Under the pieces are notes generated by a model that was given only the letters and a program-made list of their open reading frames with translations, had not been told where the DNA came from and searched no databases. This document shows positions 16,182-49,942 of a stretch of 64,000 nt of DNA, piece after piece. Every line of letters starts with the position of its first letter. The first letter of the stretch is position 1. Location of the stretch: positions 496,001-560,000 of the forward strand of contig NZ_JAZDDH010000002.1 in the NCBI RefSeq assembly GCF_037081715.1. Reading direction: 5' to 3'. A program made the translations under genes and the position numbers. Origin of the DNA: Halalkalicoccus sp. CG83 (GTDB lineage: Archaea; Halobacteriota; Halobacteria; Halobacteriales; Halalkalicoccaceae).

Positions 16182-18689
16182 ATGAGCGGGAACGACGCTG
16201 CGGCGGGCCGAGTGGGCGAGGGTGGGCGGACGAGCGAGCGGTCAGTCCGCCTCGGCGTCCCGGACATGGACTGCCCCTCGTGCGCGCAGAAGGTCGATAA
16301 GAGCCTTCAGCGCGTCGATGGCGTCGTCGACGCCGTCCTCCAGCCGACCACCGGTACGGCCACGGTGACGTACGATCCGGAGCGTGCCAACGAGGCGGAC
16401 GTGGTCGCGGCCATCGAGAACGCGGGCTACGAGGTGCTAGGAGGCAGCGAACCGGAGGAGGACGACCGGTCCGGCGGCGTCGACGTCGCGCCCCCCGCCG
16501 AGGTCTGGACGAGTCCCCGCGCGATCAAGACGTGGATCGGGGCGGTGTTCGTCGTGTTCGGTCTCCTCTTCGAGTTCCTCCTCACCGCACAGAACGTCAC
16601 GGTGGCCAGCGTCCTCGGTTATCCGCTCTCGATCGGGGCCGTCCTGTTCCTCGGAGCCGTCGTCACCAGCGGGATCCCGGTCGTCCACAGCGGCTACTAC
16701 TCGGCGCGGAATCGGAGCCTCGACATCGACCTGCTGATGGGGACGGCGATCGTCGCCGCCACGGCCATCGGCTACTTCGTCGAGGCGGCGACGCTGGCCG
16801 TCCTCTTCAGCATCGCCGAGCTGATGGAGGAGTACGCGATGGACCGGGCGCGCGATTCCCTGCGCGAACTGATGGCGCTCTCCCCGGACGAGGCGACCGT
16901 CAGGCGCGACGGCGCGGAGGTGACCGTACCCACGGCGGAGATCGAAGTGGGCGAGACCGTGATCGTGCGCCCCGGCGAGAAGATCCCCCTCGACGGGACG
17001 GTCGTCGAGGGCGAGAGCAGGGCGGGATCGAAGATCCCGCGAGCGAACGGCGACAGCGAGGAGCTTCGCTCCTCGGGTCATGCGAGCGAGCGGAGCCCGC
17101 GAGCAAAAGCCGTGAGCGCGGTCGACCAGTCGCCGATCACCGGCGAGAGCGTTCCCGTCGACAAGGCCGCGGGCGACGAGGTGTACGCCGGCGCGATCAA
17201 CCAGGAGGGCTATCTCGAGGTCAGGGTCACGTCGGTGGCGTCGGACTCCACCCTCTCGCGGATCATCGAGATGGTGCAGGGAGCACAGGCGAAGAAGACC
17301 GACACCGAGCAGTTCGTCGACCGGTTCTCCGGCTACTACACGCCGATCGTGGTCGTGCTGGCGATCCTGACCGCCGCCGTTCCGCCGCTGCTCATCGCCG
17401 AGCCGATCTCGGTCGACGTAGCCGGGTACACGCTCGGCTTCGCCGCCGACTGGCAGACGTGGTTCATCCGCGGGCTTACGCTGTTGGTGATCGCCTGCCC
17501 GTGTGCGTTCGTTATCTCGACGCCCGTCTCGGTGGTGTCGGGGATCACCAGCGCCGCGAAGAACGGCGTCCTGATCAAGGGCGGCACCTACCTCGAGGCG
17601 ATGGGCGAGGTGGACGCCATCGCACTGGACAAGACCGGGACGCTCACCAAGGGCGAGCTCGCCGTCACCGACGTCGTCCCGCTCGGCGACGTCGACGAAG
17701 CCTCCCTGCTTCGCTACGGCGCCGGTCTCGAGCGACGAAGCGAGCATCCGATCGCCGCGGCGATTCTCGCCCGTGCCGAGGAGGGCGACGTCGGTCGCCT
17801 CCCCGAGCCCGACGGGTTCGAGAGCCTGACCGGGCGTGGCATCCGCGGCGAGATCGACGGAGAGACGTACTACGCGGGCAAGCCCGCCCTCTTCGAGGAG
17901 TTGGGGTTCGATCTCTCGAGGACTCGCCGAGCGACTGACGGTGGCTCCGACGCACAGCGCGGGGCGGAGGCTCGTCGGACGCAGCGGTCCGACGGCGGCA
18001 CCGTAGCCGAGAGAGCGACCGCCGCCGGTGGCGAGCGATTCGCCGACGACGCGCTCGCCGCGCTGGAGCGGGAGGGCAAGACGGTCGTCGTCGTCGGGAC
18101 GGAGACGCGGTTACTGGGCGCCATCGCGATCGCGGACGAGGTCCGCCCCGCCTCGAAGCGGGCCGTCGAACGCCTGCACGAACTGGGCGTCGAACGGGTC
18201 GTGATGCTGACCGGCGACAACGAGGGCACGGCCCACGCCATCGCCCGCGAGGTGGGCGTCGACGAGTACCGGGCGGAGCTGCTGCCCGAGGAGAAGGTCG
18301 AGGCCATCGAGTCGCTCCAGGCGGAGTACGGCGACGTGGCGATGGTCGGCGACGGCATCAACGACGCACCCGCACTCGCCACCGCGGAGGTCGGCATCGC
18401 GATGGGGGCGGCCGGCACGGACACGGCGCTAGAGACCGCCGACATCGCCCTGATGGGCGACGACATCGGACGGCTGCCGTATCTGTACGCGCTGTCGCAC
18501 GAGGCCAACAGCGTCATCCGGCAGAACATCTGGGCGAGCCTCGGCACGAAGGCGCTGCTCGCGCTCGGCGTCCCGCTCGGGTTCGTGAGCGTGGCGCTGG
18601 CGGTCATCGTCGGCGACATGGGGATGAGCCTCGGCGTGACGGGGAACGCGCTTCGCCTGGCGCGGATCACGCCGGAGCGGTTCGACTGA
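16182..18689 (+). CDS. Heavy-metal P1B-type ATPase (Zn/Cd class)
   Basis: 835 aa. An N-terminal heavy-metal domain has MDC31-PSC34. The transport helix has C439-P-C441 followed by AFVISTPVS, and the C-terminus has the [10 protein letters not shown] pattern; both fit Zn2+/Cd2+/Pb2+ exporters (ZntA/CadA) rather than Cu+ pumps. The phosphorylated Asp483 is in [11 protein letters not shown], the phosphatase motif is TGES (320-323), and the hinge is [13 protein letters not shown]. Two insertions unlike the family occur: residues 280-312 before TGES, and a low-complexity stretch at about 585-620 in the nucleotide domain. The HTH-10 gene upstream is the likely regulator. Confidence 0.93.
17019..17117 (+). 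repeat. 99-bp palindromic element inserted in frame in the ATPase
   Basis: The 33 codons from 17019 to 17117 interrupt the otherwise conserved VVEGES...[11 protein letters not shown] segment. The element contains two perfect hairpins with three-base loops: GCGGGATC-GAA-GATCCCGC and GAGGAGC-TTC-GCTCCTC. An AGC codon borders it on each side (17016-17018 and 17115-17117), which could be a target duplication. It encodes a hydrophilic Arg/Ser-rich loop. The sequence resembles intergenic palindromes near 18.85 and 57.34 kb rather than coding DNA. Confidence 0.6.
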
Positions 18690-18848
18690 CGTCACGACGG
18701 GGCAGCCGGGAACGCATGACTCGCCCCGTGGAGCGCCTCGACGACGCGAACGAACCAGCCCGGTGTCGTTCGTGCGCACTGGCCGCGACCACAGAGAACG
18801 AGCGGTCGATCCGAACGACCATCGGGAGTGAGGATCGTTTTGGTCCAG

Positions 18849-18895
18849 CTTTTGCCGAAGGAGCACGCCGAAGGCGTGCGACTGCAGCGCAAAAG
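18849..18895. repeat. Intergenic palindromic mini-element
   Basis: CTTTTGC (18849-18855) and GCAAAAG (18889-18895) are inverted outer arms enclosing a perfect 7-bp hairpin GCACGCC-GAA-GGCGTGC (18863-18879). It lies between the ATPase stop and the eL43 promoter and could terminate the ATPase message, or be a mobile palindrome related in style to the one at 17019. Confidence 0.5.
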
Positions 18896-18946
18896 GTGGG
18901 TTGGTTCAACAGGCTTATGTGCGCGCTTCGGATAGCTACGGCCACT

Positions 18947-27054: not shown

Positions 27055-27135
27055 ATGGAGAACGCTTCCCATTGCTCGGAGGATAGAGGAAGTCGGGGCG
27101 ACCCGGCTGGATGCGAAATTCTCCCGCGAGCATAA
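27055..27135 (+). CDS. Possible 26-aa leader peptide ahead of leuA-like gene
   Basis: ATG to TAA encodes MENASHCSEDRGSRGDPAGC plus EILPRA. A TTGATATAGG TATA-like box (27021-27030) is about 27 bases upstream, the leaderless spacing for this ATG, so the mRNA appears to begin with this small frame. Its stop lies 16 bases before the TTG of the synthase gene. No Leu, Ile or Val run is present, so classic attenuation by branched-chain aminoacyl-tRNA is not supported. It could instead set translation of the downstream gene. Confidence 0.4.
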   Translation: MENASHCSEDRGSRGDPAGCEILPRA

Positions 27136-29261: not shown

Positions 29262-29346
29262 CGCCGAGGGAGAGATTTGAACTCTCGAGTCCGTGAGGAC
29301 AGCAGATTTCGAATCTGCCGCCTTGGCCAGGCTAGGCTACCTCGGC
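29262..29346 (-). tRNA. tRNA-Ser (CGA)
   Basis: 85 nt. Acceptor arms GCCGAGG/CCTCGGC pair perfectly (29340-29346 with 29263-29269) and the discriminator is G. The D-arm TAGCCTAGCCTGGCCAAGG, an anticodon loop TTCGAAA giving CGA flanked by a perfect stem, the long type II variable arm (TGTCCTCACGGACT) and T-loop GTTCAAATC are all present. No intron and no encoded CCA. No duplicate of its 3' end is seen nearby, so no sign of an integrated element. Confidence 0.97.
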
Positions 29347-49868: not shown

Positions 49869-49942
49869 TCCGCTCTCCCCGATTCGAACGGGGGACAAGC
49901 CGATCTACAGTCGGCTGCTCTACCAGGCTGAGCTAAGAGCGG
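49869..49942 (-). tRNA. tRNA-Tyr (GTA)
   Basis: 74 nt. Acceptor arms CCGCTCT/AGAGCGG pair, discriminator A; D-arm TAGCTCAGCCTGGTAGAGC, anticodon loop CTGTAGA giving GUA with the CCGA stem, and T-arm CCCCGTTCGAATCGGGG. No intron and no encoded CCA. No repeat of its 3' end was seen in the window. Confidence 0.97.

Follow-up and report, generated by a model that had tools for sequence, protein, structure and literature searches.

Does the hairpin-rich block that sits in frame in a Halalkalicoccus metal pump belong to the pump, or is it a copy of something that moves from gene to gene?

A palindromic insertion in a heavy-metal ATPase

The host gene, located in the window (here the whole analyzed stretch of 64,000 nucleotides from Halalkalicoccus sp. 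CG83), encodes a P1B-type heavy-metal-translocating ATPase of 835 aa (16182..18689, + strand), as judged from its ORF and from matches to the HMA, E1-E2 ATPase and hydrolase domains (Pfam PF00403, PF00122 and PF00702), with NCBIfam TIGR01525 above cut-off. Within this gene, a preliminary description of the DNA had placed a 99-bp, 33-codon in-frame block with two perfect hairpins and three-base loops, all of which holds: the bounds are exactly 17019..17117 (+), the ORF remains open, and the two hairpins, at 17022-17040 and 17057-17075, have 8 bp each. In the translated ORF (16182-18689, +), the residues EGES directly precede the block, and EGES-AVDQS is contiguous in every haloarchaeal homologue aligned across the site, as well as in the paralogue from the same genome. 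Since the aligned homologues and this paralogue lack the 33 codons, the insertion is specific to this ATPase copy, and the concern raised earlier that close relatives might all share the loop falls away.

Structurally, the insertion is a composite, long form of a repeat: a 54-nt core of 18 codons (17055..17108, +), which recurs elsewhere, is accompanied by a 5′ hairpin and an outer stem found in long forms only. The core was assigned from the unit limits described below and from a match to the covariance model R1 at 17054-17108 (65.5 bits, E 7.6e-12); in the family at large, these 54 nt encode 18 residues close to SAERSSADHSSGQSPRED and form two hairpins with 3-nt loops. In the ATPase copy, H1 (17057..17075, +) is CGAGGAGC-TTC-GCTCCTCG, with a perfect 8-bp stem and covariation over 83 distinct copies, and H2 (17082..17104, +; GCGAGCGAGC-GGA-GCCCGCGAGC), a third hairpin absent from the preliminary description, is recognized from covariation and the R1 match and is slightly imperfect, with a CGAG/CGAG (tandem G.A) internal loop, a GGA loop and one A.C mismatch. 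Upstream lies the 5′ hairpin H0 (17022..17040, +; GCGGGATC-GAA-GATCCCGC), again with a perfect 8-bp stem, and H1 and H2 are enclosed by the outer stem, whose 5′ arm AACGGC (17046..17051, +) pairs with the 3′ arm GCCGTG (17109..17114, +) save at the outermost position, the one outer-stem mismatch of this copy; both arms are supported by the fold and by covariation in other copies. Folded as RNA, the region gave z -2.84 on the + strand (2/200 shuffles as stable) and z -2.90 on the − strand (1/200 shuffles as stable).

Copies within the genome and across Halobacteriales

The R1 model, which represents the two hairpins and was built from 23 aligned copies from the host and related genomes, matched the host genome at 19 places with E ≤ 1. 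The top 12 copies, the ATPase one included, are all inside long ORFs, all in the sense orientation and all in one reading frame; the other hosts, named by inference from sequence, are inositol monophosphatase, PheT, a cupin, a geranylgeranyl-reductase-like protein, TrpG, a GCS2-type ligase, the PolD large subunit, UvrC, an MBL-fold protein, SerB and Cdc48. At all 11 aligned sites besides the ATPase, congener orthologues are without the insert, with an uninterrupted frame on either side of the site. Because several of these hosts are normally essential, this distribution suggests that the proteins carrying inserts still work. Copies in this genome were found by search only, and a BLAST-type search gave three partial copies besides the ATPase one, all intragenic. 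Many in-frame copies thus occur in the same genome and across Halobacteriales, which settles the earlier doubt as to whether any others exist, and the likeness to intergenic palindromes that had been drawn does not persist, the relatives of the element being almost all inside genes.

Taxonomically, R1 matches were found in 224/293 Halobacteriales genomes at E up to 1e-5, covering 68/87 genera, with up to at least 19 copies per genome (the best 19 candidates per genome having been scored), and none outside Halobacteriales in a phylum-wide sample that did not include M. jannaschii. With the hairpin-2 pattern alone, 59 genomes yielded 64 matches, versus 9 for the reversed control, and an exact-pattern scan of genome contigs gave at least 4 matches, all in Halobacteria, a lower bound given the strict pattern. 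Annotated hosts include CobN of Natronococcus occultus, a mismatch-repair protein of Halorussus aquaticus, and MerA of Halorussus, Salinirubellus, Salinigranum and Natrinema; in 4/4 plasmid records checked (CobN, two MerA and the mismatch-repair gene), the AGC codon of the element is in phase with the annotated CDS. Rfam held no family above threshold for the element, and the phage and viral collections gave no match and no sign of viral carriage. Two related species share a near-identical 118-bp unit, placed in two unrelated genes, and without movement such sharing is difficult to account for.

Some copies are extended or recur at the same site. The loci L217 and L221, in unrelated genes of two related species, contain a unit lengthened on its 3′ side by a part that encodes DEASGGSEDEQSESSGG, and DEASGGSS tails resembling this extension are also present in L097, L200 and L224. 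Two different families (L231 of genome G208 and L102 of the host genome) have the element at an identical site in SerB, SerB of the host's congeners (L172-L174) is without it, and MerA and MenB show recurrence like that of SerB. Such same-site recurrence reflects either gene transfer or a preferred site.

Unit limits and insertion sites

The unit of 54 nt, or 18 codons, was delimited by information content at 70 sites located in non-homologous genes: a steep rise occurs at GAT|AGCG, and just past CGAGAAGAC the signal is back at background level. No target motif extends beyond the unit over the 70 sites, and no consistent target-site duplication was found at these independent sites at any offset, the level being near that of shuffled sequence. 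The preliminary description had read AGC on both sides of the ATPase block as a small target duplication: the flanking letters are there (in fact GAGC), and the duplication is not borne out by the 70 independent copies. As a general feature, target-site duplication was therefore rejected, AGC or GAGC at the block edges not being diagnostic. In related species, the empty CrtI site reads FFKDGD and the filled one has 18 residues more, and the empty MenB site reads GDEERASEQ and the filled one is 17 residues longer. Insert lengths differ by whole codons as stems lengthen or shorten, and the long forms add the 5′ hairpin together with a covarying outer stem (GACGGC/GCCGTC, GGCGGC/GCCGCC, GGCGGT/ACCGCC).

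Reading frame and coding status

For frame calling, a classifier of codon usage was trained on the ORFs of the ATPase and run on the two flanks of each of 89 distinct copies. The sense strand with element frame 1 was the best combined frame in 83/89, and the same strand and frame were called on each flank separately in 70 of the 89. Among the exceptions, some are at gene ends and L116 is seemingly frameshifted; two or three copies look non-coding (L080, L204 and perhaps L086). Frame 1 contains no stop in any of the 89 copies and frame 0 is stop-bearing in 52/89; the peptides of the remaining frames, mostly open, are basic, lower in hydrophilicity or rich in Cys. Frame 1 is also the sole acidic frame, with a net charge of -0.9 on average and disorder-promoting residues making up 95%, such that it would be the frame most likely tolerated in proteins adapted to high salt. 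Frame and annotation together lead us to infer that the insert is translated.

Conservation of stems rather than peptide

Evolutionarily, the hairpins are what is kept. In the set of 83 distinct copies, pairing holds in 99.1% of stem cells, double-changed stem cells number 128 against 42 expected from shuffles, 0/500 shuffles reach the observed covariation score, and slid controls collapse. Most covarying pairs fall at the first two positions of codons, and amino acids are thereby altered together: A-A stands at residues 2 and 7 in 44/89 copies and E-S in 40/89, residues 3 and 6 are E-S, A-A or G-P, and residues 10 and 17 are S-E/D or A-A. Because these amino-acid pairs covary as base pairing demands, it is the hairpins and not the peptide that are conserved, a pattern of a folding nucleic acid rather than of a selected protein.

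Same-site pairs gave 10 double and 0 single stem changes, in copies that had been chosen for intact stems, and for this reason we also compared six MenB orthologues taken by protein search, and so without such choice. Here, one compensated pair is the sole change in the upper stem pairs, while loop bases are variable at 5/6 and flanking third positions at 83/153; the MenB copy L244 has lost the outermost part of H2, and the variable position 51 lies just outside the H2 hairpin. Stem preservation of this kind can come from selection or from template-switch correction of near-palindromes, both being able to produce the pattern.

Origin and maintenance of the element

Overall, we consider it very probable, on comparison of sequences, that the ATPase block is one of the copies of a palindromic element of haloarchaea that codes for protein and is mobile but non-autonomous. 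Insertion is clean, in genes, in one orientation and one frame, the interrupted ORFs are open, and base pairing is kept while loops and amino acids drift; the loop-free homologues and the many in-frame copies support the original suggestion of an in-frame palindromic element of the Rickettsia kind, now in haloarchaea. Mechanistically, copies would multiply via a trans-acting activity on single-stranded hairpin DNA or RNA, and survivors would mostly be insertions whose 54 nt preserves the frame, the acidic, hydrophilic and stop-free frame adding a disordered surface loop with which the host protein could still work. After insertion, the stems may stay perfect through selection on the folded strand or through the template-switch correction mentioned above. 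From tolerated in-frame insertion and stem upkeep, we posit that the element is mainly selfish and that the ATPase loop would be a tolerated passenger, apart from the mechanism of the pump.

Two findings count against this explanation. The non-coding share of such genomes is roughly a tenth or more, so random insertion followed by a frame filter alone would predict far more intergenic copies than the ~3/89 non-coding ones seen, and either some further bias must act or intergenic copies must be quickly lost. Likewise, same-site recurrence in SerB, MenB and MerA is unexpected for a purely random inserter unless genes were transferred. It is conceivable, though we lean clearly against it, that insertion itself is biased to translated DNA, on one strand and in one frame, with hairpins actively maintained in place, for example by way of an mRNA- or transcription-linked single-strand intermediate; if true, these would be the first mobile coding hairpins spread through an entire order whose mechanism is specific to the sense strand.

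Other accounts were weighed against that of a mobile coding element. A structure in RNA or DNA with a mainly regulatory role, favored by positive host selection and spread because of its use inside genes (e.g., in mRNA processing, pausing or stability), seems unlikely: stems preserved while loops vary in place, a defined sense-strand fold as suggested by the tandem G.A CGAG/CGAG and by outer-stem covariation, and the very few intergenic copies would all suit it, but the host genes are functionally unrelated, congeners are without copies, and no Rfam family exceeds threshold. We give decidedly less credence to the idea that a Y1 (HUH) transposase moves the element as a REP or as a degenerate IS200/IS605 (PATE-type) end. 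Such enzymes act on single-stranded hairpins with small loops, so the hairpins of the element are of the kind that they take as substrate. Y1_Tnp is present in 186/293 genomes, and transposase-free palindromic elements are known from Haloquadratum (PMC3119063). However, Y1_Tnp (PF01797) has 0 matches in the host genome (97% complete) and none in G001, G002, G005, G014 (16 element copies), G025 or G032, and the copies are almost all intragenic as opposed to the extragenic REPs; because the host and several element-rich genomes are without Y1, mobilization of the REP/RAYT or IS200 type is improbable as a general mechanism. Separately, at L112 an element copy lies at the C-terminus of an apparent IS605-type TnpB gene.

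That the segment is removed or skipped at the RNA level, as an archaeal bulge-helix-bulge intron or by ribosomal bypass as with yeast mitochondrial byp elements, is highly improbable. Stable hairpins within conserved coding regions fit such an account, and bypass elements exist elsewhere (PMC6649704), but the stop-free frame 1 (0/89, versus 52/89 for frame 0), the single fixed frame and the preservation of the reading frame by the insertions analyzed count against it, since a skipped segment would need neither an open nor a fixed frame. Of still smaller probability is a functional ATPase loop (e.g., for metal sensing or actuator-domain regulation) that the gene gained and that is palindrome-rich merely by base composition. 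Its position just before the TGES of the actuator domain and the open ORF are in its favor, yet no aligned homologue carries the segment, the same sequence family is found in PheT, PolD, Cdc48, UvrC and others, and residues 279-326 are predicted to be disordered (pLDDT <50) in an AlphaFold model of moderate quality (mean pLDDT 65.9), for which loop placement is thus weak evidence. As a complete account, the functional loop is refuted by the copies in unrelated genes.

Other palindromes in the window and wider implications

The same ATPase gene has a second in-frame insertion of 54 bp, or 18 codons (17946..17999, +), which contains a hairpin CGTCGGAC-N6-GTCCGACG, is a gap in most homologues and has a fold z of -2.42. 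Similar TCGTCGGACnnnTCCGACGG-like stretches are present in a few loci, and this insertion probably represents a second family of coding palindrome. Yet other in-frame inserts are found elsewhere in the gene in the ATPase homologues L013 and L017 (VSSEAGGSSDSSDGG and SGASETPRADGEVVDG), and these, together with 17946-17999, hint at further coding-palindrome families. At about 18845-18915, 3′ of the ATPase gene, is an intergenic palindrome with CTTTTGC...GCAAAAGGTGG arms, unlike the coding element. Elsewhere, the window contains a leuA-Halobacteria RNA (RF03001, above threshold; 27072-27124) and tRNA genes at 29262-29346 (−) and 49869-49942 (−).

In-frame coding palindromes had previously been regarded as an oddity of Rickettsiales, with a single report from archaea. 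A family that spans an order of free-living and partly genetically tractable archaea would open to testing the questions of how such elements move, why they keep to a single frame and whether proteins put them to use or just tolerate them. Many haloarchaeal proteins, unrelated and often essential, gain the same type of 18-amino-acid stretch from the hairpin element; for annotation, many haloarchaea-specific protein insertions may be mobile DNA. It is also a case of amino-acid covariation arising from nucleic-acid base pairing instead of protein contacts.

Comparison with known systems

The open-licence literature yielded no earlier haloarchaeal description of this element. Haloquadratum has PATEs, MITEs and SMRs, small transposase-free mobile elements with palindromes (PMC3119063). 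The PATEs are linked to IS605-type ends, the MITEs and SMRs bear terminal inverted repeats, and the passages on these elements present none of them as coding and in frame. The consistent target-site duplication of the MITE type is absent from the element (70 independent sites), and, as regards terminal inverted repeats related to a transposon, an outer stem is present in long forms only. Like REP/RAYT, the element consists of imperfect palindromes in many copies with single-strand folding; unlike these extragenic, Y1-tied repeats, it is intragenic and its host genome is without Y1. The PARCEL repeats are tandem amphipathic palindromic coding repeats, whereas the element occurs as single insertions with a different peptide, and the PARCEL paper reports none in archaea. 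Coding palindromic repeats of Methanocaldococcus jannaschii (Suyama et al. 2005) and Wolbachia (Ogata et al. 2005), both cited in PMC2996958, are likewise palindromes in protein genes, and those of M. jannaschii are, as cited there, one archaeal precedent for coding palindromes.

The closest parallel in behavior is with the Rickettsia palindromic elements (RPEs), short palindromes that sit in frame in unrelated genes, are translated in a conserved frame and are tolerated by the host proteins (PMC10969869, PMC2229807). Like RPEs, the haloarchaeal palindrome is found in frame in unrelated ORFs and has one frame and a consensus peptide within the family (83/89 copies in frame 1). Its core of 54 nt and long form of 99 bp differ from the 105-150 bp of RPEs, its sequence and fold are probably distinct from theirs, and only ~3/89 copies are non-coding, whereas about half of the R. 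conorii copies are intergenic. Furthermore, RPE palindromes are reported to decay (PMC6649704), whereas the haloarchaeal stems stay perfect. Thus, the mode of action is like that of RPEs, and what differs is the length, probably the sequence, the near-absence from intergenic DNA and the preservation of the stems.
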